A stretch of DNA of 64,000 nt from Candidatus Manganitrophaceae bacterium (GTDB lineage Bacteria > Nitrospirota > Nitrospiria > SBBL01 > Manganitrophaceae), in contig JACQEZ010000001.1 in NCBI GenBank assembly GCA_016200325.1, positions 372,001-436,000 of the forward strand, in the 5' to 3' direction. The notes below the pieces were generated by a model. That model saw nothing but the letters and a program-made list of their open reading frames with translations, searched no databases and was not told the origin of the DNA. A program made the position numbers and the translations under genes. Below, in pieces: positions 32,098-46,611 of this stretch (position 1 is the first letter of the stretch; the number at the start of each line of letters is the position of its first letter).

Positions 32098-33777
32098 TTA
32101 GTGTCCTCCTGAAGCGTTCGCGTCGGTCGGTGGGGGAAGGGTCTCCGGCGTCGCCGGTGTTCCTGCCGGGGCCGGTGCGGGCGCCGGCTCCGCGGCGATC
32201 GCCGGGGCCGGTGTCTCCGCCGGTGTTGTCATCCGTGCAATGATCGGCGTCACCCCCGATTGGATCACATTAATAAACGGCGCGGGATAAATTCCGAAGA
32301 AAAGGGTCATCGAAGCAAGCAGAACGAGCGGGAGGCGGTCGACCACCCCATGCGCATCGACGATATGGGACATCTTCGGGTCGGCCTCGCCGAAGAACAT
32401 CGCCCGGATCATCCGGAAATAGTAGGCCCAGGTGATGGTGATCGCCATCGCCGCCAAGACCGTCTGGACCGGGTAGACCTTCCAGCTTCCCAAAAAGACC
32501 ATCAGCTCGCCGATGAAATTCATCGCCCCCGGCATTCCGAACGACGCCGCCGAGCCGATGACAAAACAGGTGGCGATGAACGGCATCTTCGACGCCAGCC
32601 CGCCCCCCATCGACGGAATGTCGAGGGTGTGGGTCTGGTAGTAGATGTAGCCGGCGAGCGCGAAGAGCAGCCCCATCGCCATCGCGTCGGCGAAGAGGAA
32701 GAAGACGGCGCCGGTCAGCGAGATCAGGTTCAGCGACGCCATTCCGAGGAAGATATACCCCATGTGCGCCACCGACGAGTAGCCGACGACGAACTTCGTG
32801 TCTTTCTGGAGAAAGGCGACCAACCCGCCGTAGAAAATGTTGATCACGCAGAGGACGGCAATGATCGGCATCCACTGCTGCGTCGCCGCCGGAAAGAGGA
32901 AGAAGCAGATCCGGATGATCGTAAAATGGCCGAGCTTCTTCAACACCCCGGCGTGCATCATGCTCGCGGCGGCGGGGGCGGCGGCATAGCCGACCGGCGA
33001 CCAGGAGTGGAAGGGGAAGATCGCGGCGATCGGCGCGAAGCCTAAGAAGATGAGCCAGAAGTAGAGATCCTCTTTTGCTTTTAACGCCCCCCCCTTCTCG
33101 GCGAGCTCAAGGATGTTGAAGGTCCGGAGGCCGGAGTCGACATAGACGAGCAACAGCCCGAGCAGCGCGACCACCGCGCCGAGCGAGAGATAGAGGGTCA
33201 GCTTCATCGCGGCGTACTCTTTGCTCGACCGGTTGAAGTTGAAGAAGTGGGAGACCGAATCGGCGAGCGGGTTCCCCTCTTTTTTCATATCGAGGTAGCC
33301 CTTGGTGTGCCGGCCCCAAATCGTCAAGAAGAGGTACATCGGGATCACCGAGAGCTCGTAAAAGAAAAAGAGGAAGAAGAGGTCGAGCGACATGTAGACC
33401 CCGATCGTCGCCGAGCCCAAGATCAAGAGGTTGATGTAGAACTCTTTCAAGCGGTCTTTGACATGCCAGGAGACGAAGATTCCGGCAAACATCAACATCG
33501 AAGAGGCGAGGACCATCGGCGCGCCAATCCCGTCGACCCCGAGGAAGAAGGCGATCCCGAGCTCTTTCGACCAGCGGTAATGTTCCTGAAACTGAAAACC
33601 TCCGGCGGTATGGTCGTACGACATCATCAGATAGGCCGAGGCGAGGAGCGAGAGGCCGGCGAAGGTGACGGCGATCCCCTGGACGATCTCCCGCTGTTTG
33701 TTCGAGACGAAGAAGAGAAGGAACGCCCCGGCAAACGGCGTGAAGAGGATGAAGGAGAGGAGGTGGCTATTTGACAT
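32098..33777 (-). CDS. nuoM: Second NuoM-like proton-pumping subunit
   Basis: 559 residues. NuoM family by the FFYELSVIPMYL segment (TM5 Glu141), VLKKLG (TM8 Lys280), YSSVAHMGYI and NFIGELMVF (TM12 Glu424). The TM7 segment reads GFAPIAAIFPFHSW, so the usual Lys is Ile250. An unusual insertion (about 155-190, NPLADSVSHFFNFNR) follows TM5. The last 45 residues form a Pro/Ala-rich tail ending in a Gly/His tail. It overlaps the first NuoM gene by 11 bases. A second NuoM is the mark of '2M' complex I. Confidence 0.92.
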   Translation of the reverse strand: MSNSHLLSFILFTPFAGAFLLFFVSNKQREIVQGIAVTFAGLSLLASAYLMMSYDHTAGGFQFQEHYRWSKELGIAFFLGVDGIGAPMVLASSMLMFAGIFVSWHVKDRLKEFYINLLILGSATIGVYMSLDLFFLFFFYELSVIPMYLFLTIWGRHTKGYLDMKKEGNPLADSVSHFFNFNRSSKEYAAMKLTLYLSLGAVVALLGLLLVYVDSGLRTFNILELAEKGGALKAKEDLYFWLIFLGFAPIAAIFPFHSWSPVGYAAAPAAASMMHAGVLKKLGHFTIIRICFFLFPAATQQWMPIIAVLCVINIFYGGLVAFLQKDTKFVVGYSSVAHMGYIFLGMASLNLISLTGAVFFLFADAMAMGLLFALAGYIYYQTHTLDIPSMGGGLASKMPFIATCFVIGSAASFGMPGAMNFIGELMVFLGSWKVYPVQTVLAAMAITITWAYYFRMIRAMFFGEADPKMSHIVDAHGVVDRLPLVLLASMTLFFGIYPAPFINVIQSGVTPIIARMTTPAETPAPAIAAEPAPAPAPAGTPATPETLPPPTDANASGGH

Positions 33778-35488
33778 GGGGTCCCTCCCTTTTTTTCATC
33801 TCCGGCGTCGAAGGGGTCGTCTCCTTCGGGGCCGGAATGGGGGAGGCGAGCGGATTCTCCTCATCCAACGCGTCAAACTGGAAGAGCCCGGCCGGGGTGG
33901 CAATCGCAGCCGGTGCCGCCGCCGGTTCAGCCGGTGATGCTATCGGATCTGCAATCGTCCCGCCGACCCGCTGGGTGACGAAGTCGATCGAGCCGTCCAT
34001 CACCTTCAGAAACGGCATCGGGTAGATCCCGACCCAGAAGATCATCACGGCAAGCGCGACGCAGATCCCGATCTCCCGGGCATCAAGATCGGGGATCGTC
34101 TTGTTCTTCGGATTGGTGATCTCTCCCATCATCACCCGCTGATAGAGCCAGAGGAGATAAGCGGCGCCGAGGAGCACGCCGAGGATCGCGGTGAGGGTCA
34201 GCCGCCAGTCGAGTCTCGCGGCGCCGACCAGAATCAACAGCTCGCCGACAAATCCATTCGTTCCCGGAAAGGCCATCGAGGAGAGGGAGATCATCAAATA
34301 GAAAGCAGCGAAGATCGGGAGGCGCTTGCCGAGCCCGCCATATTCGGAGATCGCTCGGGTGTGGCGCCGCTCATAAAGAAATCCGACGATCAGAAAGAGC
34401 CCCGCCGTCGAGATCCCATGATTCAACATCTGAATCATCCCCCCCTGAATCCCGGCCCGATTCAGCGCGAAGATTCCCAGGACGACAAACCCCAAATGGC
34501 TGATCGAAGAATAAGCGATCAGCTTTTTGATATCGTCCTGCGCCAGCGCCAGCAGCGCGCCGTAGACGATCCCGATCACCGAGAGGATCGTCATCATCGG
34601 AACGAAGTTGGCCGAGGCGATCGGCAGGAGCGGGAGGGAGAAGCGGACGAAGCCATAGGTCCCCATCTTCAGGAGGACGCCGGCCAGCAGGACGCTCCCG
34701 GCGGTCGGCGCTTCGACGTGGGCGTCGGGGAGCCAGGTGTGAAAGGGGAACATCGGGACTTTAAAGGCAAATCCGAAAAAGAGGAGGAGGAAGACGATGT
34801 TCTGCTTCGACTCCGAAAGCGGCGCCTTCAACAGATCCAAGAGGCTGAACGAGTAAGCCTGTGGAAGATTCTGCGCCAAGGCGTAGTCATGATAGTTCAA
34901 ATAAAGGATCACGAAGCCGACGAGCATCAAGACCGAGCCGGCCAGCGTGTAGAGGACGAACTTCAGCGAGGCGTAATCGCGGTTGGCGCCCCCCCAGACC
35001 TTGATCAGGAAGTACATCGGGATCAGCATGATCTCCCAGAAGAGAAAGAAGAGGAGGAGGTCGAGCGACACGAAGACCCCAACGACCGTCGTCTCGATCA
35101 CCAGGAGACAGATCAGATACTGTTTCAAATACGACTCGATCCCTTTCCAAGAAAAGAGGACGAGCAACACCATCAAAAAGGTCGTCAGGGTGACGAGGAA
35201 GATGCTGATCCCGTCGACCCCAATATGATAGGCGGCGCCGAGCGGACGGATCCAGTTCGCTTCCTCGACGAACTGCATGTTCGCCGTCCCCCGCTCGAAG
35301 AGCGCCGGGAGGAGCAGCGAGAGAAGAAAGACGACCGACGACGTGATCAGCGCCGTCATCCGCATCTGCCGCTCGTCCTTCAAGAGGGAGATCGCCAACG
35401 CCCCGACCGCCGGAAGAAGAAGGAGCAGTGTCAGCAGCGGAAAGCCGATTTGGGTGTTCGCGAAGATTTGATCGATTGTGCTCACCAT
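33767..35488 (-). CDS. nuoM: NuoM proton-pumping subunit (canonical copy)
   Basis: 573 residues. All expected pump residues are seen: TM5 Glu in LFFLFWEIMLIPMYFL, TM7 Lys in FAFKVPMFPFHTWLP, TM8 Lys in GVLLKMGTYG and TM12 Glu in GFVGELLIL. The TM7-8 loop has the classic DAHVEAPTAGSVLL. After the last helix a Pro/Ala-rich tail of about 70 residues follows. It is translationally coupled to the second NuoM by an 11-base overlap. Confidence 0.95.
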   Translation of the reverse strand: MVSTIDQIFANTQIGFPLLTLLLLLPAVGALAISLLKDERQMRMTALITSSVVFLLSLLLPALFERGTANMQFVEEANWIRPLGAAYHIGVDGISIFLVTLTTFLMVLLVLFSWKGIESYLKQYLICLLVIETTVVGVFVSLDLLLFFLFWEIMLIPMYFLIKVWGGANRDYASLKFVLYTLAGSVLMLVGFVILYLNYHDYALAQNLPQAYSFSLLDLLKAPLSESKQNIVFLLLFFGFAFKVPMFPFHTWLPDAHVEAPTAGSVLLAGVLLKMGTYGFVRFSLPLLPIASANFVPMMTILSVIGIVYGALLALAQDDIKKLIAYSSISHLGFVVLGIFALNRAGIQGGMIQMLNHGISTAGLFLIVGFLYERRHTRAISEYGGLGKRLPIFAAFYLMISLSSMAFPGTNGFVGELLILVGAARLDWRLTLTAILGVLLGAAYLLWLYQRVMMGEITNPKNKTIPDLDAREIGICVALAVMIFWVGIYPMPFLKVMDGSIDFVTQRVGGTIADPIASPAEPAAAPAAIATPAGLFQFDALDEENPLASPIPAPKETTPSTPEMKKREGPHVK

Positions 35489-35511
35489 TATTTGTCCTTA
35501 CAACCGTTTCC

Positions 35512-35555
35512 CTTCGACAGGCTCAGATTCTCCGTTCGTGCTGAGCTGGTCGAAG
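35512..35555. repeat. Inverted-repeat (REP-like) element inside the nuo operon
   Basis: CTTCGACAGGCTCAG (35512-35526) and CTGAGCTGGTCGAAG (35541-35555) form an imperfect palindrome, a sequence type seen between genes in many bacterial genomes. It sits in the only long gap (152 bases) between the NuoL-like and first NuoM genes. It could alter relative expression or mark a past insertion. Confidence 0.65.
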
Positions 35556-35640
35556 CACCGCTTTCACTCCGTCCTTGCCGCTTGTGCGCCGCGGTTCCCC
35601 GCAGGGTACGAAAGCGGGAAGGACAACTTGCGAACGCTTT

Positions 35641-37524
35641 CTATCTCAACACCGTCACCACCGCCGCAATCTGTTCCCGGAACATCAGGTAAAGGTTGAC
35701 GAGGAAAAAGATTCCGACGATCAGGATCATCGCATAGTTGTGGACCGAGCCGGTCTGCAGACGGCGGAAGATCCGCGCCGCCGCATGGTTGGCATATCCG
35801 ATCATGTTAATAAAGCCATAGACAACATGATTCTCAACAAAATTTGAGAAGCCGCTTCCGCTGAAGATGCCGCGGCCGATCGCGTTGACCGCGCCGTCGA
35901 TCACCCCGACGTCAAACCGGCGGCAGAGGGCGACGAAGCGCTTCATCGGCTGGATGACGACATTCTGGTACGCTTCGGTGATGAACGCTTCCCAGGCGGC
36001 GATCGGATTGTTCGCGGTCCAGAGGAGCGCCCGTCCCCCCATCCGATAGAACCAGTCGGTGTCGAGCGAGATCGTCGGCTCCGGATCGAGCTTCTTCAAG
36101 AGCAAGAAAAAGCCGAGCGCGGTGAAGAGGAGCATCTGGAGCGCCCCCCACACGTGATCGGCGGTGTAGGGGTGATAGTCGACCGGATGAGGAAGGAGAT
36201 TGTAGAGGGTCCCGGGGACGACCCCGATGGCGACGCAGAGAAAGGCGCCGATCCCCATCGCGACCAGCATGTTCTTCGGCGGCTCATGCGCCTTGATCCC
36301 GGCATCTTTCGCAAAGAAGATATACCAGGGGAGCTTCAGCCCGGTATGGAGGAACGTTCCGGCGGAGGCGAGGGTCAAAAGGAGATAGGCCCAGGCGATA
36401 TGCGCTTCGCCCGCCGCGGAGACAACCATCGACTTGCTGACGAACCCGGAGAAGAGGGGAAAGGCGGAAATCGAGAGACCGCCGATCATGTAAAGGGTCA
36501 TCGTGACCGGCATCGTTTTATAGAGCCCGCCGAGCTCGGTCAGCTTCTGCCGGCCGGTTACATAGATCACCGCCCCGCTCCCCATGAACAAAAGCGATTT
36601 ATAAAGGATGTGGGAGAAGGCGTGCGAGATCGCCCCATTTTGCGCCAGCTCGGTCCCCATCCCGACCCCGGCGACCATGTAGCCGACCTGGCTGATGATA
36701 TGGTAGGCGAGCAGCCGGCGGATGTCGTTCTCCAAGACGGCATAGACGACCCCGTAGAGCGCCATCGCCACCCCCATGTAGATCAGCAGCTCGGTTCCGG
36801 AGAAAGCGCGGACGAGCACATAAACCGCCGTCTTCGTCGTGAAGGCGCAGAGGAAGACCGAACCGGTGACGGTCGCCTCGGGGTAGGCGTCGGCGAGCCA
36901 AGCGTGCAGCGGCGGGACGGCGGCGTTGACGAGGAAGCCGATCAAAATCAGCCAGAAGGCGAGTCCGTGCGCCTGGTTCGGTCCGAAGGCGATCGTCTTC
37001 TGCGTCACCGCATAGACGACGATGCCGCCGAGCAGCGCGACCCCGCTGAAGGCGTGGACCAAGATATACCGGAAGCCGGGCCACCAGGCCGCTTTGCCGC
37101 GGTACCAGATCAAAAAGACCGACGAGAAGGCCATCCCCTCCCAGAAGACGAAGAGGGTGAAATAGTCTCCGGCGAAGGTGACGCCGAGCGAGCTCCCGGC
37201 ATAGACCAACGCCGCGATATGCTCGCCGTCCTGCTTCACATGGAGGGCGTAAATCATCCCGATCACCCCCATGATCGCGAAGACATAGCCGAAGACGAGA
37301 CTCATCTTGTCGACCTTCCCGAAGACAAGCTCCTGTCCAAGGAAAGGGAAGACGCCATACTGCCCGGGGGTCATCAAAAGAAGATCGAAGAAGGCGATCG
37401 CCGGGAGCGCGACGAGATACGCCTGCTTCGCCCTCCCTTTCAGGAAGGGGACCAGCACCGCGCCGAGAATCAGAATCAATCCGGGATGGATCCAGGTCAT
37501 GGTTTCCGTTTTACCTCCAACCAT
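35641..37524 (-). CDS. nuoL: NuoL/MrpD-like antiporter subunit with C-terminal lateral helix
   Basis: 627 residues. The core is an MrpD/NuoL-type antiporter domain (TM5 Glu129 in FVFWEGMAF, TM8 Lys231 in FTTKTAVYVL, TM12 Lys in GFVSKSMVV). The usual TM7 Lys is Asn200 in FLVNAAVPPLHAWL. The C-terminal 170 residues (DTDWFYR, then VIDGAVNAIGRG, then RLQTGSVHNYAMILI) match the end of NuoL, so a lateral helix that clamps the membrane arm is likely. It occupies the NuoL position in the operon. MrpD naming is possible because the core is closer to monovalent-cation antiporter subunits. An ATG at 37500 is an alternative start. Confidence 0.88.
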   Translation of the reverse strand: MVGGKTETMTWIHPGLILILGAVLVPFLKGRAKQAYLVALPAIAFFDLLLMTPGQYGVFPFLGQELVFGKVDKMSLVFGYVFAIMGVIGMIYALHVKQDGEHIAALVYAGSSLGVTFAGDYFTLFVFWEGMAFSSVFLIWYRGKAAWWPGFRYILVHAFSGVALLGGIVVYAVTQKTIAFGPNQAHGLAFWLILIGFLVNAAVPPLHAWLADAYPEATVTGSVFLCAFTTKTAVYVLVRAFSGTELLIYMGVAMALYGVVYAVLENDIRRLLAYHIISQVGYMVAGVGMGTELAQNGAISHAFSHILYKSLLFMGSGAVIYVTGRQKLTELGGLYKTMPVTMTLYMIGGLSISAFPLFSGFVSKSMVVSAAGEAHIAWAYLLLTLASAGTFLHTGLKLPWYIFFAKDAGIKAHEPPKNMLVAMGIGAFLCVAIGVVPGTLYNLLPHPVDYHPYTADHVWGALQMLLFTALGFFLLLKKLDPEPTISLDTDWFYRMGGRALLWTANNPIAAWEAFITEAYQNVVIQPMKRFVALCRRFDVGVIDGAVNAIGRGIFSGSGFSNFVENHVVYGFINMIGYANHAAARIFRRLQTGSVHNYAMILIVGIFFLVNLYLMFREQIAAVVTVLR

Positions 37525-37534
37525 TCCCAGTAGG

Positions 37535-37873
37535 TCATGGGTGGGAATGCCCTCCTTCGGTGTCGGGATCTTTCGGCGTGGCCGGGGTCTCGACGAAGTC
37601 TTCGCCCGGCGGGGCGTCGTAATAGTTCTCCCGGACCATCAGGCCGCCGGAATGTCCGATGAACTTGGAGACGATGATGATCAGGACGCAGGAGATGAAG
37701 CCGTAGAAAGAGCTAAAGGTCGGGATCGCATCCCAGGCGAAGTGCGGGTGCGCCCGGGGGATGAAGAAGTCGCCGATCACCAGGAAGGCGAGGATCGCAT
37801 AAAAGAGCCGCTTGATCGCCTTGATCCGCGCCGGATTTTCCAATACCGATTGTAGCTTTGCGCCGTAGCTCAT
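37535..37873 (-). CDS. Small membrane protein within the complex I operon
   Basis: 112 residues. A basic N-terminus (NPARIKAIKRLFYA) is followed by two membrane helices (about 22-38 and 57-75) joined by a short loop (IPRAHPHFAWDAIP) and a soluble acidic/Pro tail ending in HSHP. No complex I subunit family matches. It lies between an MrpD-like and a NuoL-like gene, 19 and 10 bases from them, so it is cotranscribed and is probably an accessory subunit or assembly factor of the extra antiporter module. Confidence 0.75.
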   Translation of the reverse strand: MSYGAKLQSVLENPARIKAIKRLFYAILAFLVIGDFFIPRAHPHFAWDAIPTFSSFYGFISCVLIIIVSKFIGHSGGLMVRENYYDAPPGEDFVETPATPKDPDTEGGHSHP

Positions 37874-37892: not shown

Positions 37893-39440
37893 TCATTTGA
37901 TCACCATCTTTGCGAGTGCTAAGAAATAGTCGGGGTATAATCCGACCAAAATCGAGAGGGTCGCCGTCACGACCAGCGGAACGTAGACGAACGGCGAGGC
38001 TTCGCCGAAATCTTCGTCATGACCGTCGTGGTGACCGGCCGCCATCGCCCCGACGCTCTGCGGCACCGGATGCAACGGCGCATGGCCCTGGCCATGATGC
38101 GCTTCTTCCCCTTCCGGCGACTCGAAGAAAGCGGTATAGATCACCGGAATAAAGTAGGCGGCGTTCAACAGCGTGCTCGCGAGCAGCACGAAGAGGATCG
38201 GGATCTGCCCCGCCTCGATCGATCCGACCGCAAGGTACCACTTCGTCACAAACCCCGCCACCGGCGGCACCCCGATCATGCTGAGCGCGGCGATCGAGAA
38301 AGCGGTCATCGTCCAGGGCATCTTTCGGCCGATCCCTTTCATCTGGCTGATATTCGTCTTGTGCGAGGCGACGTAAATCGACCCGGCGCAGAAGAAGAGG
38401 GTGATCTTCGAGATCGCATGGTTGGCGATATGGATGATCCCGCCGGTCATCCCGCTCGGCGACAGGAGCGCCGCGCCAAGGATGACATAGGAGAGCTGGC
38501 TGACGGTCGAGTAGGCGAGCCGCGCTTTGAGATTATCCCGCGTCAGTGCGTAAACCGACGCCATGATGATCGTGAACGAGACGAGATAGGCGGTGGCGAT
38601 TCCGAGATGCAGCTGACCCATCAACTCAACGCCGTAAACATAGAAGATCACTCGCAAGACCGAGAAGACGCCGACCTTCACCACCGCCACCGCATGGAGC
38701 AGGGCGGAGACCGGGGTCGGCGCGACCATCGCCGCCGGGAGCCACGCATGCATCGGCATGATCGCCGCTTTGGCGAAGCCATAAATGAAGAAGAAGTAAA
38801 TCAATACCAACAGCCACGGCGCTCCCTTGCCGGCGAAGAGGCCCTGCTTCGAGAACTCGAGCGTTCCGGCGATATTATAGGTCAACACAATCGCCGCGAG
38901 GAGAAAGGTCTTCGAGGCGCCGACGAGGTAGATTAAATATTTCCGCGCGCCGATGAACGACTCCGCCGTCCCCTTATGATTGACCAGCGGGAAGGTGGCG
39001 AGGCTGAGGAACTCGTAGAAGATGAAGAGGGTCAGGAGGTTGGCCGAGAAGGCGACGCCGAGGGCGGCCGAGACGCTGATCGCGAAGCAGGCGAAGTAGC
39101 GGGTCTGCTTCTTCTCGTTCGTCCCCCGCATGTAGCCGATCGAATAAAAGGTGGTGATGATCCAGAGCCCCGACGCGATCGTCGCGAAGACCATCCCGAG
39201 CGGATCGACCCGGAATTTGATGTCGAGCCCCGGCAGGAAGGTGAAGAGGGTGTATTCGAAGATCTGCCCCGAGAGGATCGCCGGCGCCATCGACATGACA
39301 ATCAAGAACTTCACGATGCCGGCGCCGATCGACCATCCTTCCCGGAGGTTCGGGTTTTTATCGGAGGCGATAATGAGACCGACCGCCACCATCGAGACGA
39401 GGACGGCGAGCAGCGGCCTGATGTCGGTGATTGCTTCCAA
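37893..39440 (-). CDS. MrpD-like antiporter subunit of complex I
   Basis: 515 residues, about 14 membrane helices. TM5 Glu in FIFYEFLSLATF, TM7 Lys in GFAKAAIMPMHAWLP, TM8 Lys in AVVKVGVF and TM12 Lys in GFVTKWYLA are all kept. Block order and loop sequences are closer to MrpD (Na+/H+ antiporter) than to NuoL/M/N. It has a His-rich loop (about 450-475). As an additional pump in the nuo operon it would bring the antiporter-like count to five. The proton or Na+ specificity is unknown. Confidence 0.9.
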   Translation of the reverse strand: MEAITDIRPLLAVLVSMVAVGLIIASDKNPNLREGWSIGAGIVKFLIVMSMAPAILSGQIFEYTLFTFLPGLDIKFRVDPLGMVFATIASGLWIITTFYSIGYMRGTNEKKQTRYFACFAISVSAALGVAFSANLLTLFIFYEFLSLATFPLVNHKGTAESFIGARKYLIYLVGASKTFLLAAIVLTYNIAGTLEFSKQGLFAGKGAPWLLVLIYFFFIYGFAKAAIMPMHAWLPAAMVAPTPVSALLHAVAVVKVGVFSVLRVIFYVYGVELMGQLHLGIATAYLVSFTIIMASVYALTRDNLKARLAYSTVSQLSYVILGAALLSPSGMTGGIIHIANHAISKITLFFCAGSIYVASHKTNISQMKGIGRKMPWTMTAFSIAALSMIGVPPVAGFVTKWYLAVGSIEAGQIPILFVLLASTLLNAAYFIPVIYTAFFESPEGEEAHHGQGHAPLHPVPQSVGAMAAGHHDGHDEDFGEASPFVYVPLVVTATLSILVGLYPDYFLALAKMVIK

Positions 39441-39507: not shown

Positions 39508-39810
39508 TTACCCTTTCAACAAATTAATCTCATCGACATTCGTGGTCGCCTTCTTCCGGAAGAGGACGATGATGATCGCCAAGCCGACCGCCGCTTCCGC
39601 CGCCGCGATGGTGATGATGAAGAGCGAGATGATCTGTCCGTTGACCGATTGGTAGTTGCGCGAGAAGGCGACCAGGTTGATGTTGGCGGCGTTCAGCATC
39701 AATTCGATGGCGTAGAGAATGATCAAAAAGTTCTTCCGGATCAAGACCCCGACGAGCCCGATGACGAACATCACCGTCGAGACGATCACGTAATAGGACA
39801 CCGGCACCAT
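39508..39810 (-). CDS. nuoK: NADH-quinone oxidoreductase subunit K
   Basis: 100 residues with three helices. The second helix carries ILYAIELMLNAANINLVAF with its buried Glu, and the third has AAAEAAVGLAIIIVLF with the second conserved Glu. These match MrpC/NuoK-family proton-relay residues. It starts one base from the nuoJ stop. Confidence 0.97.
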   Translation of the reverse strand: MVPVSYYVIVSTVMFVIGLVGVLIRKNFLIILYAIELMLNAANINLVAFSRNYQSVNGQIISLFIITIAAAEAAVGLAIIIVLFRKKATTNVDEINLLKG

Positions 39811-40449
39811 CTAAGCCGACCCCACTTTATGCAGCGCGCTCCGTTTCTCCTCCGAGAGGGTCTCCGGCGCGATCTTCGTCTGGCCGTTTCCGGAGGGAGA
39901 GAGCGGCACTTCCAATGGATGAGCGCCGTTTCCGCTTGCCGCCGTTCCCGTCTGGATCTGTTTGGCCAAAACGAGCGCCCCGATGATCCCGCCCAACAAG
40001 ATAATTCCGACCATTTCAAAGGGGAGGAGATACTCGTTAAATAGAGAAAGCCCGATCGCCTCGGTATTCCCGAGCGCCGGGGCGGCCGTGGCGGCCGGCA
40101 GGGTTCTTTCCAACGAGGGGGATCGGAGGAGGGCGATCAAAATCTCCGCGAGGATCACGACGCCGAAGAAGAGGGCGACCCAGAGCTGCCGGTGGATCAC
40201 CGGCTCGGTGCTTTTCAAATTCAAGAGCATCAGGACGAAGAGATAGAGGATCAACACCGCCCCGGCATAGATGATGATTTGGATGGCGGCAAGAAATTCA
40301 GCGTTTAAAAGGACAAAAAGACCGGCCACATGAAGAAAGGTGGAGAGAAGGGCGATGGTGCAGTAGACCGGATTTCGAAGGCCGATCGTCAGGACCGACG
40401 AGAAGAGGGCCATGCCGGCGAAATAGAGAAAAAATAAAAGCGGTGCCAT
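39811..40449 (-). CDS. nuoJ: NADH-quinone oxidoreductase subunit J
   Basis: 212 residues, five helices. The conserved TM3 pi-bulge region is visible: FLAAIQIIIYAGAVLILYLFV with the Tyr/Gly pair. A soluble C-terminal tail of about 50 residues (rich in Gly/Pro/Ser) exceeds the usual NuoJ length. It lies between nuoI and nuoK as in standard operons. Confidence 0.95.
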   Translation of the reverse strand: MAPLLFFLYFAGMALFSSVLTIGLRNPVYCTIALLSTFLHVAGLFVLLNAEFLAAIQIIIYAGAVLILYLFVLMLLNLKSTEPVIHRQLWVALFFGVVILAEILIALLRSPSLERTLPAATAAPALGNTEAIGLSLFNEYLLPFEMVGIILLGGIIGALVLAKQIQTGTAASGNGAHPLEVPLSPSGNGQTKIAPETLSEEKRSALHKVGSA

Positions 40450-40476
40450 TCAATCCTTGCGGTTAAAAAAGCGGTT

Positions 40477-41094
40477 TTATTCTGCCTTCGGGGCGCTGGC
40501 CGCCGGCTCCGGCTTTGTCTCCGTTTTCACCGGCTGCGGCACCGTCTCCCCATTCACATACGCCGGAAATTTGTACCGGTATTCGCGGGCGGTGTCGTCG
40601 GCTTTCTCTTGGTTGTGCGCCACGAGATAGGCTTTTGCATCGGAGTGGTACTTCTCGCCGATCTCATAGAGTTTCGGCTTGTCGAAGATCAAGCTCCGCT
40701 TGTTGTCGGTCGAGTATTCATACAGCTTCGTCATCCCGAGCGCGTTGACTGGGCAGGCCTCGACGCAGAAGCCGCAGAAGACGCACTTGGTGATGTCGAT
40801 GTCGAACGCCGTGGCGATCCGCCGGAGCACCTGTCCATCCTGGATCTCCGCGCTGACGACCTTGATGCAGTGGGACGGGCAGGCCGCTTCGCAGAGATCG
40901 CAGCCGACGCACCGCTCGGTCCCATCTTCATAACGCAGCAGACAGAGGGCGCCGCGGTGGGTGTCGGGGAGGACGAGCTTCTGATGCGGGTATTGCAGCG
41001 TGACCTCGCGGACAAACATATGTTTAAAGGTCAGCTTCATCGCCTTGGCGATTTCTTTAAAGAGGACCTTGTCGACCAGTTCGAGAAATTTCAC
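40477..41094 (-). CDS. nuoI: NADH-quinone oxidoreductase subunit I
   Basis: 205 residues. Two ferredoxin-type clusters are encoded by CVGCDLCEAACP and CVFCGFCVEACP, which carry electrons from NuoG to NuoB (N6a/N6b). An N-terminal amphipathic helix (LFKEIAKAMKLTFKHMF) attaches it to the membrane. The tail (from about residue 180) is Pro/Glu/Ala-rich. In standard operons nuoH lies directly before nuoI; here nuoG is only 10 bases upstream, leaving no room for it. Confidence 0.97.
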   Translation of the reverse strand: MKFLELVDKVLFKEIAKAMKLTFKHMFVREVTLQYPHQKLVLPDTHRGALCLLRYEDGTERCVGCDLCEAACPSHCIKVVSAEIQDGQVLRRIATAFDIDITKCVFCGFCVEACPVNALGMTKLYEYSTDNKRSLIFDKPKLYEIGEKYHSDAKAYLVAHNQEKADDTAREYRYKFPAYVNGETVPQPVKTETKPEPAASAPKAE

Positions 41095-41104
41095 AGACGC
41101 TCCG

Positions 41105-43879
41105 CTATTTCGCTTCTTCCGTCGGCGCCGGCTCCGCCGGCATCACCATCAATTGCACCTTCCAAACTTTCTCCAGGGCGACCGGCTCTTCTTTAAAATA
41201 GGGGACGCGCGTCACCGGGTCGATTGCGCCGGCGAAGAGGTCTTTTACGTTCGGCCGGTTGAAGTGGGTCGGGAAGTGGAGGACCCCCTTCGGGAGCGAC
41301 TCCGAGACTTCAGTCGTCACCTCGACCTGGCCAAGCGACGATTTGATCTTAACCGTATCACCGCTCTTCAGCCCCATCGCCTCGGCGTCGGCGGTGCCGA
41401 TATGAAGGAGCGCTTTGTCGTCGATCTTCATCAAGCCGGAATCCCGGGTGGAGAGCTTCCCGGAGTGGTAGAGCACCTGGACGAGATCGAGGGTGAAGGG
41501 GAAAGGTCCTTCCGACGGCTTCTCGGTCGGCCGGTATCGATCGGCGATCTGGGCGATGAAAGAACCCTCCGTGTAACGGGCCGGACGGGGAGCGGGTCGC
41601 TCATTTCGGAAGTAGCCGGGGACGAGCTGAGCGATCTCCTGGGCGATATCTTCCGGCCCTTTATATTGGAGCGGATGTCCCATCACTTTTGAAAGATCAC
41701 AGAAGATCTTCCAGTCGGGCCGGGCTTCGCCGCGCGGATCAAACGCCGGCGCGACACGACGGATCTTCCCTTCTACATCGGTGAAGGTCCCTTCTTTTTC
41801 GGCGGCGACGGCGGCGGGGAGGACGACATCGGCCATTTCGCCGCTCTCGGTCATGAAGGGGTCTTGGCAGACGATGAACTCGACATTCTCCAGCGCCTGC
41901 CGGACCCGCATCGAGACCGGCAGGGTCCCCAGCGGATTCTCTCCGACCAGATAGAGCGCCTTGATCTCGCCCCGCTCGGCCCGCTCCAGAATCTCAGGGA
42001 GGGTGGCCCCCCCTTCCGGCAGATCGGAATGCCAAGCGGCTCTGAACCGGGACCGTTCTTCCTCCGAGGCGTAGGCGCGTTGGCCGGGGAGGAATTCGGG
42101 GACCGCCCCCATGTCGACCGCCCCTTGCTCATTGTTTTCCTCGCAGATCGGCAGAATGCCGGCCCCTTCTTTTTCGAACAGACCGGTCAGCAATGCAAGA
42201 TCGATCAGACGGAGGACATTTTCATAGCCCCCCTGCCGCGAGACGATCCCTTCTCCCCAGATCAGCGTTCCCCGCTGCGATTGGGCGAGGAGCTCCGCCG
42301 CCTCGGCGATCTTCTCCCAGGCCAATCCGCTCTCGCGGGCGAGCGTTTCCTCGGAGAGGCCGGCCATGCTGTTTCGAAGCGCTTCGTAGGCTGCCGGATA
42401 TTTCTCGACAAAGGCCGGGAAGGCAAGCCCCTTGTCGATCACCGCTTTGACCAGCCCCTGAATGAACGCCGTCTCGCCGTGAACGGCGACCTGAAGCGGG
42501 TGGCTCGCCAGCTTCATCATGTTGCTCTGGAAGAGGTCGGCGACGATCAGCTTCGCTTCGAACCGTGATTTTGCCTCTTTGAGACGGAGCGCGGTGACCG
42601 GATTGGTCTCGGTCATGTCGTTTCGGACCATCAAGATCACATCGGAGAGGGTCATCGCTTTGTCGGTGGTGGTTGCATACCCGATCCCCAGCGTCTGTTG
42701 CAGCGCGGTGACCGAGTTCATGTGTCCATAGCGCGCGGCGGTGTCGATGTTGTTCGTCCCCAACACCGACCGCATCAGCCGCTGGAAGAGGTAGACCTCT
42801 TCGTTGGTGCAGCGCCCGGTAATCAGCCCGGCGATCGCCTGGCCGCCATGTTTCGCTTTGATCTCCATCAACCGCTTGCCGATCAGCGCGTTCGCCTTGA
42901 TCCAGGGAACCTCGGTCCAGCGGCCCTCGATCTTCATCAGAGGCCGGGAGAGGCGCGATTCGCTCTGGTTGTACTGGAACCCGAACCGGCCCCGGACGCA
43001 GGTGCCGCCATGGTCATCCCCCAGCTCGACATCGTTTCCGAACTTGCTCAGATACGAGAGCTTCGAGGTGACCCGGACGACCTTTTGCGTTTCACTTTCC
43101 AGGTGGAGCGTGCAGCCGTCGGAGCAGTAGCCGCAGGTCGTCACCGTTTTCTTCAGCTGCCAGGGCTTGAAGGCATATTTGGAGAAGCGGCTGACGATCG
43201 CGCCGACCGGGCAGACCGCCAAGCAGTCGCCGCAGAATTCGCACTGGAGGGGCACGCCACCATGGGCGCCGACGTGGGTCTTGCCGTCTTTCTTATAAAA
43301 GGTCAGGGCGTCGACCAGCTGAACCTCCTTGCAGACGTTGATGCACTGTCCGCAGAGGATGCAGCGGTTCATGTTGAAGTCGAGGACCGGGCTGCGGGTG
43401 TCTTCCGGAATCTCTTTCCGGGTTCCCTTCTTGATGTCGTAAACGCCGAGGTCGTAGGTCATGTCCTGCAGCTCGCACTTCCCGTCGGCATCGCAGACGG
43501 GGCAGTCGAGCGGGTGGACGACGAGGTGCTTTTCGATCGCTTTCTTCCGGGCGTCTTCGATCTTCTCGGTCTGGGTCTTCACGACCATTCCATGGGTGAT
43601 CTTGGCGGTGCAGGAGCGGACGTTGTTATTCTTCCCCTCGACTTCGACCAGGCAGACGCCGCAGGAGCCGAACGACGAGAAGGTATAGTGATAACACATC
43701 GCCGGGATTTGGATCCCCATCGTCCGCATCGTATCGAGCAGGAGGGAGCCTTCGGGGACGGAGATCTTTTTTCCGTCGATCGTTACATCCAACATCTTTT
43801 TCGCAGGCGCCGCCGCCGGCGCCGGTTCCGGCGCGGTCGGGATTTCAATTTTACCGGGTGCTTTGGTCTCTTCGCTCAT
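41105..43879 (-). CDS. nuoG: NADH-quinone oxidoreductase subunit G
   Basis: 924 residues. After a Pro/Ala-rich N-terminus, the 2Fe-2S ligands are C62, C73, C76 and C90; the His-ligated 4Fe-4S site is H122, C126, C129, C135. Two ferredoxin clusters follow (C173-C183, C213-C223), then an N7-like CGYCSDGC motif (C249, C252, C256, plus a later Cys). The rest is a molybdopterin-oxidoreductase fold with a C-terminal dinucleotide-binding-like domain (KSGDTVKI), related to formate dehydrogenase. nuoE and nuoF, which carry FMN and NADH binding, are not in the operon, so NuoG would receive electrons from another donor, such as ferredoxin. Catalytic Mo binding is not expected. Confidence 0.95.
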   Translation of the reverse strand: MSEETKAPGKIEIPTAPEPAPAAAPAKKMLDVTIDGKKISVPEGSLLLDTMRTMGIQIPAMCYHYTFSSFGSCGVCLVEVEGKNNNVRSCTAKITHGMVVKTQTEKIEDARKKAIEKHLVVHPLDCPVCDADGKCELQDMTYDLGVYDIKKGTRKEIPEDTRSPVLDFNMNRCILCGQCINVCKEVQLVDALTFYKKDGKTHVGAHGGVPLQCEFCGDCLAVCPVGAIVSRFSKYAFKPWQLKKTVTTCGYCSDGCTLHLESETQKVVRVTSKLSYLSKFGNDVELGDDHGGTCVRGRFGFQYNQSESRLSRPLMKIEGRWTEVPWIKANALIGKRLMEIKAKHGGQAIAGLITGRCTNEEVYLFQRLMRSVLGTNNIDTAARYGHMNSVTALQQTLGIGYATTTDKAMTLSDVILMVRNDMTETNPVTALRLKEAKSRFEAKLIVADLFQSNMMKLASHPLQVAVHGETAFIQGLVKAVIDKGLAFPAFVEKYPAAYEALRNSMAGLSEETLARESGLAWEKIAEAAELLAQSQRGTLIWGEGIVSRQGGYENVLRLIDLALLTGLFEKEGAGILPICEENNEQGAVDMGAVPEFLPGQRAYASEEERSRFRAAWHSDLPEGGATLPEILERAERGEIKALYLVGENPLGTLPVSMRVRQALENVEFIVCQDPFMTESGEMADVVLPAAVAAEKEGTFTDVEGKIRRVAPAFDPRGEARPDWKIFCDLSKVMGHPLQYKGPEDIAQEIAQLVPGYFRNERPAPRPARYTEGSFIAQIADRYRPTEKPSEGPFPFTLDLVQVLYHSGKLSTRDSGLMKIDDKALLHIGTADAEAMGLKSGDTVKIKSSLGQVEVTTEVSESLPKGVLHFPTHFNRPNVKDLFAGAIDPVTRVPYFKEEPVALEKVWKVQLMVMPAEPAPTEEAK

Positions 43880-43906
43880 TTCAATCCTGTAAGATGGAAT
43901 TTAGAC

Positions 43907-43964
43907 GTCAGGAGTCAGAATTCAGAAGGCGTGCGTTTTATTCTGACTTCTGGATTCTGTATTC
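43907..43964. repeat. Imperfect repeat between nuoD and nuoG
   Basis: An 85-base spacer contains TCAGAATTCAGAA and its near-inverse TTCTGACTTCTGGATTCTG, an iterated CAGAA/TTCTG motif. Such low-complexity palindromes often spread as small repeats. It may modulate expression of nuoG relative to nuoD. Confidence 0.5.
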
Positions 43965-45191
43965 CTATCGATCGCACTCTCCCATGACAATGTCGTAGGT
44001 TCCGAAGATCGTAATCACGTCGGCGATCATATACCCTTTGGCCATGTGGTCGAAGGCGCCCATGTGGATAAAAGACGGGGCGCGGATTTTCAATCGATAC
44101 GGTTTTCCCCCTCCGTTGCTGACGATGTAAAAGCCGAGCTCCCCTTTGTGGGCCTCGGTGCCGCAGTAAATGTCGCCCGGGGGGGCGTTGAACCCTTGGC
44201 TATAGAGCTTGAACTGATAGATCATGCTCTCCATGTCGGTGAAGACCCGCTCCTTCGGCGGGGCGACCACCTGCGGGACATAGGCTTTATAATCTCCCTG
44301 CGGAAGCTGATCGAGGCATTGCTTGATGATCTTGGTGCTCTCGTGCAGCTCCATCATCCGAACCCAATAGCGATCGTAGGTGTCGCCGTTTTTTCCGACC
44401 GGGACCGACCACTTCACCTTGTCATAGGCGCCATAGGGGGCGACCTTCCGAAGGTCGTAGTCGACCCCGGAGCCGCGGAGCGTCGAACCGGAGAGGGCAT
44501 AACGGACGGCATCTTCCCCCGAGATGACGGCGATATTTTTCGTCCGGGCGATCCAGATCCGGTTATTGACCAACAATGTGTCGTACTCTGCGATCTTCGA
44601 TGGAAAGTCGGCGACGAACTTATAGAGGTCCTCGATGATCTTCGGGGTGAAATCGCGCTCCACCCCGCCGACCCGGTACCAGCTGGTCGTCAATCGCGCG
44701 CCGCAGAGCTCATCGAAAATATCGAGGAGGATCTCCCGCTCGCGGAACGTATAAAAAAAGACGGTCATCGAGCCGATGTCGAGCGCCTGCGTGCCGAGCC
44801 AAAAAAGGTGGCCGATGATCCGCTGTACTTCCGCGACGATCGTCCGAAGATACTCGGAGCGCTCCGGGACCGTGATCCCCAAGAGTTTCTCGATTGCCCG
44901 GACATAGGCGAAGTTGTTGTACATCGCGCAGACGTAGTCGAGCCGGTCGGTATGAGGAATGAACTGGTTGTAGGTAATCGTCTCGGCGAGCTTCTCGACG
45001 CCGCGATGGAGATAGCCCAACACCGGATCGGCCTTGATGATCTTCTCCCCTTCGAGGGTGAGGACCACCTTCAAGACGCCGTGGGTCGACGGATGCTGCG
45101 GCCCCAGATTGAGGAGGAGTTCCTCCGTTCTCAAGAGGGGGAGCGTTCCTTTGTTCTCCGTGACCGGTGTCGCTGCTTCTTTTAAATCCAT
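43965..45191 (-). CDS. nuoD: NADH-quinone oxidoreductase subunit D
   Basis: 408 residues. A 49-kDa-type subunit, homologous to the hydrogenase large subunit. LLNLGPQHPSTHGVLKVVL near the N-terminus carries the quinone-site His, PHTDRLDYV and the C-terminal FGTYDIVMGECDR match the family end. It has no Cys ligands, as usual. It forms the quinone pocket with NuoB and NuoH; NuoH is not encoded here. Confidence 0.97.
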   Translation of the reverse strand: MDLKEAATPVTENKGTLPLLRTEELLLNLGPQHPSTHGVLKVVLTLEGEKIIKADPVLGYLHRGVEKLAETITYNQFIPHTDRLDYVCAMYNNFAYVRAIEKLLGITVPERSEYLRTIVAEVQRIIGHLFWLGTQALDIGSMTVFFYTFREREILLDIFDELCGARLTTSWYRVGGVERDFTPKIIEDLYKFVADFPSKIAEYDTLLVNNRIWIARTKNIAVISGEDAVRYALSGSTLRGSGVDYDLRKVAPYGAYDKVKWSVPVGKNGDTYDRYWVRMMELHESTKIIKQCLDQLPQGDYKAYVPQVVAPPKERVFTDMESMIYQFKLYSQGFNAPPGDIYCGTEAHKGELGFYIVSNGGGKPYRLKIRAPSFIHMGAFDHMAKGYMIADVITIFGTYDIVMGECDR

Positions 45192-45205
45192 CGGGGGTGA
45201 CGATC

Positions 45206-45727
45206 CTATGTTTCTAAAAATTCAAACGTGTCGCGCCATCCGCGGCCTTCGATCGGAAAGTTTTTCCGGAGCGGATAGCCTTCATCGTATTCATCCGGCA
45301 GGAGGATGCGGCGCAGATCGGGATGGTTATTGAACTTAATCCCCATCATGTCGTAGACCTCCCGCTCCATGTAATTGAGCCCCTCCCAGAGCGGCGTCAG
45401 CGAGTCGATGGTGCAGTCGTCTTCTGCAATCCGCACCTTCAGCCGGACCTGGTGCTTCTTTCGAATCGAGAAAAATTCATAGACGACTTCGAACCGCTCC
45501 GGCTCCCCCATATAATCGACCGAGGTGACATGAACGGGGTAGTCGAAGTCGAGCGCCGGATCGTCCCGGAGCTGCCGGGCGACCTCGGTCAATCCCTGTT
45601 TCTTCAGATGAACGGAGAGATCCCCTCGAAATAAGGTGGCGCCGAGATAGGCCGACGGAAAATGCTCCCGGATCTTCTGCGCCAACGGGTGTTCCCCCCC
45701 CTCTTCCATCCCCGCTGGAATTTTCAC
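45206..45727 (-). CDS. nuoC: NADH-quinone oxidoreductase subunit C
   Basis: 173 residues, the 30-kDa subunit family: [33 protein letters not shown] and the signature ERETYDMMGI-like segment here reading [13 protein letters not shown], then [21 protein letters not shown]. It overlaps nuoB by 4 bases (ATGA). It is separate, not fused to nuoD. Confidence 0.97.
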
Positions 45728-46200
45728 TTTGTGAAGACCTTCTTCTTCATGATCTGATCCTGGAGCCGTAAAATGCCTTCCAGCAGCGCCTCCGGGGTCG
45801 GCGGGCAGCCGGGAACGTAGATATCGACCGGTACGAACCGATCGACCCCCTGCACCACGCTGTAGCTATTGTAGATATTTCCCGAGGTGGCGCAGGAGCC
45901 CATCGAAATCACATATTTCGGCTCCGGCATCTGATCATAGACCTTTCGGATCACCGGGGCCATCCGGCGGCAGACCGTTCCGGCGACGATCATCAGGTCC
46001 GACTGCCGGGGGGAGCCGCGAAAGACACCGGCGCCGAAGCGATCGATGTCATACCGCGAGGCGACCGCCGCCATCATCTCGATGGCGCAGCAGGCAAGCC
46101 CGAAGGTCATCGGCCAGAGCGAGCCTTTTCGGGCCCAATTGACCGCTTGGTCCAGGGTCGTCGTGATGAAATTCGCCTCGAACTTCCCGGTCAATCCCAT
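45724..46200 (-). CDS. nuoB: NADH-quinone oxidoreductase subunit B
   Basis: 158 residues. Holds cluster N2: ligands in [10 protein letters not shown] (tandem Cys), GTVCRRM and [30 protein letters not shown] is the usual quinone-site loop. It overlaps nuoA by 10 bases and nuoC by 4, so the first genes are translationally coupled. Confidence 0.98.
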
Positions 46201-46559
46201 TCGAGCCCTCCTTTTCGCCAGGCATAGGCGTAGCCGACGACAAAAAGGGCGATGAAGAGGACCATTTCAATCAGCCCAAAGAGCCCGATTTTGTGGAAGA
46301 CCACGGCCCACGGGTAGAGGAAGGCGACTTCGATATCGAAGATCACGAAGAGCATGGCAATAATGTAGTAGCGGACGGGGAAGGGTATCCGGGCATCCGA
46401 GATCGGCTCGCTGCCGCATTCGTAGGTGGTCAGCTTCTCCCGATTGTAGATCCGGGGCTGGACAAAGTAGCTGACGACCAACGTTCCGACCCCAAAGGCG
46501 ACGGAAGCCAACAGGAAGATAAAGATAGGAATATAATTGATGGAGGGGGCTTCAATCAT
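46191..46559 (-). CDS. nuoA: NADH-quinone oxidoreductase subunit A
   Basis: 122 residues, three helices. [20 protein letters not shown] and [16 protein letters not shown] (with the conserved acidic residues of helix 2) identify NuoA. The ATG at 46559 gives the usual length and start; a TTG at 46598 would add 13 residues but lies almost on the predicted transcription start. First gene of the operon. Confidence 0.95.
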
Positions 46560-46611
46560 TCCAAATAACCAGCCTAAATCAAGAGCGTCGCCGGTCAATT
46601 AGCGAGGCGCT

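Follow-up and report, generated by a model that had tools for sequence, protein, structure and literature searches.

The stretch of DNA analyzed here (the window) is 64,000 nt long and corresponds to positions 372,001-436,000 on the forward strand of contig JACQEZ010000001.1 (assembly GCA_016200325.1) from a Candidatus Manganitrophaceae bacterium; all coordinates count within the window. On the minus strand, reading from 46598 down to 30637, lies a complex I operon with the gene order nuoA-B-C-D-G-I-J-K, mrpD1, a gene for a 112-aa membrane protein, mrpD2, nuoM1, nuoM2, and nuoN. The canonical proton-transfer set of a NuoM consists of a Glu in transmembrane helix (TM) 5, a Lys in TM7, a Lys in TM8, and a Glu in TM12 (Glu5, Lys7, Lys8, and Glu12), and two of the five antiporter-like subunits of this operon, NuoM2 and MrpD2, lack the TM7 Lys. 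On sequence grounds, the loss in NuoM2 marks an ancient, widespread, and conserved NuoM subtype, and the TM7 Lys is not universal. The genes for the five subunits and the codons in question are as follows.

32098..33777, minus strand: nuoM2, a Lys-less NuoM of 559 aa with E141 (TM5), I250 (TM7), H275 and K281 (TM8), and E424 (TM12)
33028..33030, minus strand: codon of NuoM2 Ile250 at the TM7-Lys position, placed by arithmetic from the residue position
32953..32955, minus strand: codon of NuoM2 His275 in TM8, which aligns with His254 of E. coli NuoL and with Leu259 of E. coli NuoM, placed by arithmetic
35641..37524, minus strand: mrpD2, NuoL-like, 627 aa, with a C-terminal lateral helix, a 26-residue insert, and E129 (TM5), H157 (TM6), N200 (TM7), K231 (TM8), and K364 (TM12)
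36925..36927, minus strand: codon of MrpD2 Asn200 at the TM7-Lys position, placed by arithmetic from the residue position
33767..35488, minus strand: nuoM1, a Lys-type NuoM with E152, K243, K274, and E416
37893..39440, minus strand: mrpD1, MrpD-like, with E143, K224, K255, and K400 and the TM8 His H249; over the cut-off of NCBIfam NF006236
30637..32097, minus strand: nuoN, with all four residues (E140, K221, K251, and K394)

Both Lys-less proteins belong to recognized families: NuoM2 scored 408.6 bits against NCBIfam TIGR01972 (NDH_I_M; curated cut-off 263.8), and MrpD2 scored 759.7 bits against NF009310, "Na(+)/H(+) antiporter subunit D" (curated cut-off 564). Alignment to solved structures, which extended along the length of NuoM2, placed its Ile250 on K234 of E. 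coli NuoM and on the corresponding Lys of Paracoccus NuoM, with the flanking motif PFHSW aligned to solved NuoM free of gaps, and placed Asn200 of MrpD2 on the TM7 Lys of MrpA (6z16), of MrpA and MrpD (7d3u), and of the MBS subunit 6u8y_X. In a joint alignment with E. coli NuoL/M/N, the residues at TM5/TM7/TM12 read E/I/E for NuoM2 and E/N/K for MrpD2, E/K/E for NuoM1, and E/K/K for both MrpD1 and NuoN. The TM8 Lys is found in all five subunits (K281 in NuoM2, K231 in MrpD2, K274 in NuoM1, K255 in MrpD1, and K251 in NuoN), and the TM7 Lys is present as K243 in NuoM1, K224 in MrpD1, and K221 in NuoN, leaving TM7 as the single position at which NuoM2 departs from the canonical set. These were the assignments made in the first-pass annotation, down to the retained TM5, TM8, and TM12 residues and the complete sets of the other three subunits, and the alignment to E. 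coli NuoL/M/N and MrpA/D recovered the same columns.

The structural models are in keeping with this assignment. AlphaFold2 models (mean pLDDT, the predicted local distance difference test, of 87 for NuoM2 and 78 for MrpD2) have the first TM7 half-helix ending exactly at I250 and N200, respectively, with the break where the Lys normally sits. The best match of the NuoM2 model among solved structures is the NuoM 8qby_M (TMt 0.92), and the predicted fold is that of a NuoM with TM7 and TM12 broken. An artefact, by which misalignment or a sequencing error would conceal a Lys elsewhere in TM7, is refuted: no other Lys or Arg occurs in TM7 (span Ec224-243) of NuoM2 or its 82 Lys-less relatives (0/83), the PFHSW segment aligns without gaps, and independent genomes agree. 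An alignment shift is likewise ruled out by the structure alignments, and recent decay in this genome by the family-wide occurrence of the changes. We also considered the extra Lys at position 280 of NuoM2 (HAGVLKKLG) as compensation; it was ruled out, as Met stands there in Nitrospira NuoM2.

The survey of homologues shows how far the change extends. In the first set of NuoM2 proteins collected, Ile was found in 33/33, and a wider scan of named bacterial genomes gave Leu, Ile, or Thr in all 83 NuoM2-type proteins and Lys in all 40 other NuoMs; the 83 were gathered by likeness to the NuoM2 type and so document its distribution rather than its frequency. In a maximum-likelihood tree the 83 form a single clade (SH-aLRT, the Shimodaira-Hasegawa approximate likelihood-ratio test, 100), and one change explains the trait. 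Members of the clade show essentially no variation at Glu5, Lys8, or Glu12, and the Ec322 column holds a His that is invariant or nearly so. In at least 44 complex I loci, which represent more than 15 phyla, the Lys-less type has no other NuoM beside it within the cluster; the phyla include Chloroflexota, Myxococcota, Omnitrophota, Planctomycetota, Verrucomicrobiota, Acidobacteriota, Gemmatimonadota, and Bacillota. These 44 loci have the order NuoL (Lys), NuoM (no Lys), NuoN (Lys), and nuoH was seen within the fetched stretch in 32 of them. The ratio of nonsynonymous to synonymous substitution rates (dN/dS) is 0.18 for NuoM2, 0.15 for NuoM1, and 0.12 for NuoN, which corresponds to comparable purifying selection on the three proteins.

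The first-pass annotation had suggested that NuoM2 and MrpD2 may be proton-transfer-impaired spacers. In this explanation the two subunits would pump nothing and would instead pass on an electrostatic or lateral proton signal or hold the arm, and about 4 ions rather than 6 would be moved per cycle. It can draw on the 2M complexes, where each locus in which both NuoMs were read has one Lys-type and one Lys-less copy, and on MrpD2, which evolves at about twice the rate of its neighbors. However, the Lys-less type is the only NuoM in 44 clusters, so there is no extra spacer there, and Glu5, Lys8, Glu12, and the Ec322 His are invariant or nearly so alongside a fixed His in TM8. The conserved Glu5, Lys8, and Glu12 are not decisive, least of all for MrpD2, because a lateral relay would need the same residues. 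A dead spacer role for NuoM2 is unlikely, and for the pair we consider a spacer or relay function to be the less probable explanation, if one with some weight. The other suggestion of the first-pass annotation, that charge is moved in a different way, fits better; a spacer or relay within the five-unit arm is conceivable above all for MrpD2.

The loci with two NuoMs raise a further possibility. In all 27 of them (23 from Nitrospirota and 4 from Chloroflexota) the Lys-type copy is first and the Lys-less copy second, with the latter adjoining nuoN wherever nuoN fell within the stretch, and in the tree the pairs from the two phyla branch separately for Lys-type and Lys-less copies alike. The Lys-less NuoM could act as a lower gear that moves one proton fewer and is favored by selection when little energy is released, as with menaquinone; the 2M complexes would then have arisen from a Lys-less complex that gained a Lys-type NuoM. 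This history would fit the constant gene order, found separately in Nitrospirota and Chloroflexota, in which the Lys-type copy precedes a Lys-less copy that adjoins nuoN, and the Lys-less NuoM occurs in many lineages generally regarded as menaquinone users. On the other hand, there are menaquinone organisms with a Lys-type NuoM, such as Thermus. In addition, a value of 4 H+ was retained by those NuoM variants of Paracoccus that were still active (PMC9802314), and a lower gear is in our view improbable.

The loss of Lys in NuoM is accompanied by a second change, in TM8. The column occupied by NuoM2 His275 (His254 in E. coli NuoL, Leu259 in E. coli NuoM) holds His in 83/83 members of the Lys-less clade vs Leu in 40/40 Lys-type NuoMs. 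NuoL His254 and MrpA H273 are the "histidine switch" described for NuoL/MrpA (PMC13358369, PMC7419157), and in NuoM and NuoN the Lys is stated to be the only protonatable residue of TM8 (PMC7419157). The Lys-less NuoM therefore has a His in the column of the switch, although the switch itself was described for NuoL/MrpA, and the TM8 of NuoM2 is MrpA-like (His275 plus Lys281) while its TM7 Lys is missing.

MrpD2 has a different set of companion residues. Its TM7 column is Asn in 46/46 relatives, as compared to Lys in 134/134 MrpD1 and NuoL proteins, and all four MrpD2 copies read from rhizobial plasmids have Asn; as for NuoM2, the change is family-wide. His157 in TM6 is invariant (46/46), Gly161 (46/46) occupies the position of the NuoL Asp that pairs with the TM7 Lys, position 158 is not Arg, and the TM8-His position is Leu or Met. 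The NuoL Arg/Asp pairs that accompany the TM7 Lys have been described (PMC11496545). In MrpD1, the TM8 Lys is Asn in 10/46 relatives elsewhere and Lys in this genome. The dN/dS of MrpD2 is 0.35 vs 0.10-0.18 for the other antiporter subunits, and its TM7 region is among the most conserved parts of the protein. MrpD2 is a weaker case than NuoM2, as the sole-NuoM evidence covers the NuoM2 type only. The family name of MrpD2, Na+/H+ antiporter subunit D, and the exchange of cations by Mrp complexes might suggest that the Lys-less subunits conduct Na+ or K+. However, the published Mrp structure shows its cations at MrpC histidines and neighboring residues, not at TM7 of MrpD (PMC7419157), and we regard another ion as very improbable.

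Several further observations concern MrpD- and NuoL-type proteins. Between two congeners, MrpD2 is 66% identical (35641-37524 vs L076), as compared to 87-90% for the other antiporter subunits. Outside complex I, another contig of this genome (C15, L073 3313-7144) carries a second mrpD1-mrpD2 pair together with two copies of the small-protein gene, perhaps the published TO_2 oxidase cluster; here, too, Asn occupies the TM7 position of the MrpD2-like protein, and in the MrpD1-like protein Asn is found at TM8. A further contig (C3, L075 6028-9129) has a 1034-aa open frame with two Proton_antipo_M stretches that is NuoL-like. Its alignment has Gln at TM5 and Val at TM12, an unusual fused or duplicated antiporter-like protein.

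Our current hypothesis, which we favor by a small measure, is that NuoM2 and MrpD2 still move protons along a central Glu5-Lys8-Glu/Lys12 axis with alternative gates. The central wire would be kept in both proteins; in NuoM2 the TM8 His would gate in place of the Glu5-Lys7 ion pair, and in MrpD2 gating would fall to a set of Glu5, His6 (TM6), and Asn7 (TM7). The companion residues of the two subunits have the appearance of alternative sets of gating residues that are under selection. The complex as a whole probably works in the reverse direction, with quinol as the donor for ferredoxin reduction at the expense of the proton-motive force, as has been published for its relatives.

Several points weigh against this hypothesis. 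In the literature covered, we found no assay of any Lys-less NuoM or MrpD2. TM7-Lys mutants are inactive in E. coli and Paracoccus (PMC3046159, PMC9802314), which also speaks for a spacer or relay. These mutants bear only on Lys-type subunits, because the Lys was tested only there. A natural comparison is HycC of E. coli formate hydrogenlyase, a hydrogenase subunit rather than a NuoM, which has Leu208 for the TM7 Lys and keeps the TM5 Glu, TM8 Lys, and TM12 Glu (PMC5061711, PMC9474812). HycC tolerated all 18 substitutions without an effect on the enzyme (PMC5061711). As the best-studied natural Lys-less relative, it fits a subunit that need not pump and leans toward a relay or non-pumping role in that enzyme, which by analogy would favor a spacer or relay here. 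In MbsH (6u8y_H), from the archaeal sulfane-sulfur reductase MBS, the TM7 Lys is likewise absent, with Glu in the column; MbsH differs in having no TM8 His in the aligned column. Furthermore, the Lys/His exchange in NuoM took place on one branch and is a single event that does not prove compensation, and so calling it compensation goes beyond the observation; NuoL, MrpA, and MrpD1 have or can have both the TM7 Lys and the TM8 His; and the new histidines are placed by alignment column, not by spatial distance.

The remaining features of the operon, both on the minus strand, are as follows.

37535..37873, minus strand: 112-aa membrane protein between mrpD1 and mrpD2, with no Pfam match and a homologue at the same place in the rhizobial "green" complex I
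39508..46598, minus strand: remainder of the complex I operon (nuoK, nuoJ, nuoI, nuoG, nuoD, nuoC, nuoB, and nuoA)

Judged by its genes, the cluster is the known, unusually large five-antiporter Complex_I_3, a Nitrospira 2M membrane arm joined to a green MrpD1-MrpD2 pair. In Yu et al. 2022, Complex_I_3 of Ca. Manganitrophaceae is described as having five ion-pumping subunits, of which two MrpD-like subunits are related to green complex I and two NuoM and NuoN are related to Nitrospira 2M, with a 26-residue insert in MrpD2 (PMC9040806). The gene content, the order, the two MrpD-like, two NuoM, and one NuoN subunits, and the insert in the lateral helix of MrpD2 all match here; our search of the paper found no mention of the TM7 Lys or of NuoH (PMC9040806). 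The NuoM2 of this cluster was found in 6/6 genomes of the host's genus, its relatives are Nitrospirota, and the same cluster type is found beyond the genus, in two other families of the order, f2 and f5 (G006, G009, G011, G012, and G013). No nuoE, nuoF, or nuoH is present in the operon. Their absence is already known for clade-3 2M complexes (PMC6606698), and the missing nuoH was therefore dropped as a novelty. The 112-aa protein is an unnamed small subunit of the MrpD pair that is kept between mrpD1 and mrpD2 in green-type clusters.

The TM7 changes in NuoM2 and MrpD2 are each shared with the source system of the subunit in question. The Nitrospira 2M clade 3, attributed to Chadwick et al. 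2018 (cited in PMC6606698), likewise has a tandem NuoM pair before nuoN and no nuoE, nuoF, or nuoH in the cluster, and in every 2M copy examined the TM7 Lys is missing from the second NuoM, as in the window. It differs in its lengthened NuoL with a TM7 Lys, which is replaced here by MrpD1-MrpD2, the insert being in MrpD2 instead. The rhizobial green complex I, attributed to Degli Esposti and Martinez-Romero 2016 (cited in PMC9040806), shares the order MrpD1, small protein, MrpD2 and the MrpD2 Asn in four plasmid copies. In contrast to the window, it has one Lys-type NuoM and nuoE/F/G/H, and it has no 26-residue insert.

The Lys-less NuoM also occurs in the second, canonical complex I of this genome, which lies on another contig (C16, L072) and whose only NuoM is Lys-less (Leu). 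Compared to the orthologous cluster of a congener (G005, L179), NuoF, G, H, and I are 89-93% identical, whereas identity in the membrane arm falls to 59% for NuoJ, 60% for NuoK, 43% for NuoL, 38.5% for NuoM, and 44.5% for NuoN, and the NuoM of G005 has the Lys. The Lys-less arm is found in G000, G001, and G003 and the Lys-type arm in G002, G004, and G005, and the outgroups in the order with a recovered NuoM (G007, G009, G011, G012, and G016) share the Lys-type arm in J, K, M, and, where recovered, N. At the DNA level, similarity stays at about 82% across nuoI and the first part of nuoJ, beyond which it drops. The Lys-type arm in G002, G004, and the outgroups, together with the fall in similarity within nuoJ, therefore suggests that the arm was most likely replaced wholesale in this lineage with a breakpoint in nuoJ. 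The closest NuoM relatives found in the tree for the C16 arm are from Myxococcota/Pseudomonadota metagenome-assembled genomes, and the C16 Lys-less version has a dN/dS of about 0.1, or purifying selection.

Other loci of these genomes vary on the same theme. Between C16 (L072) and six loci (L179, L207-L211), the arm from within nuoJ through nuoN is 38-60% identical and NuoF-I are 89-94% identical. In the complex I cluster at L212 (G007), mrpD1 and the small-protein gene precede a NuoL-like gene and then NuoM and NuoN, an arrangement that may be intermediate between the green and the canonical arm. Green-type complexes with nuoE/F/G/H and an MrpD1-MrpD2 pair occur in the host's order at L181 (G009) and L182 (G012), and the MrpD2 at L181 has a lateral-helix insert though its NuoM is single.

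Earlier work already covers Complex_I_3, the green and 2M complexes, and HycC. For the Lys-less NuoM clade, its TM8 His, its presence in all 2M pairs examined, and the arm swap, we found no description in the literature covered; Chadwick 2018 or Degli Esposti 2016 may already note the residue. It is possible, though we put it forward tentatively, that these proteins represent a second widespread design of proton-transferring NuoM, lacking the Glu5-Lys7 pair and having a TM8 His switch of the MrpA/NuoL type, with sister species carrying one kind or the other on the same NADH/quinone module and each 2M complex examined combining the two.

Current models of complex I coupling (electrostatic wave, domino) give a central place to the ion pair between the TM7 Lys and the TM5 Glu. 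A Lys-less NuoM subtype that is monophyletic, has a NuoL-type TM8 His, and serves as the only NuoM in many phyla offers a natural counter-example to these models or an alternative solution. In the counts published for 2M complex I and Complex_I_3, each antiporter-like subunit is taken to move one ion, and the five- and six-ion counts thus rest on subunits without the full canonical set. With two of five subunits in this position, the number of pumped protons cannot be read from the number of subunits, as the first-pass annotation had argued. The congeners with a Lys-type or a Lys-less arm on a near-identical NADH/quinone module offer a ready comparison for the H+/2e- question.

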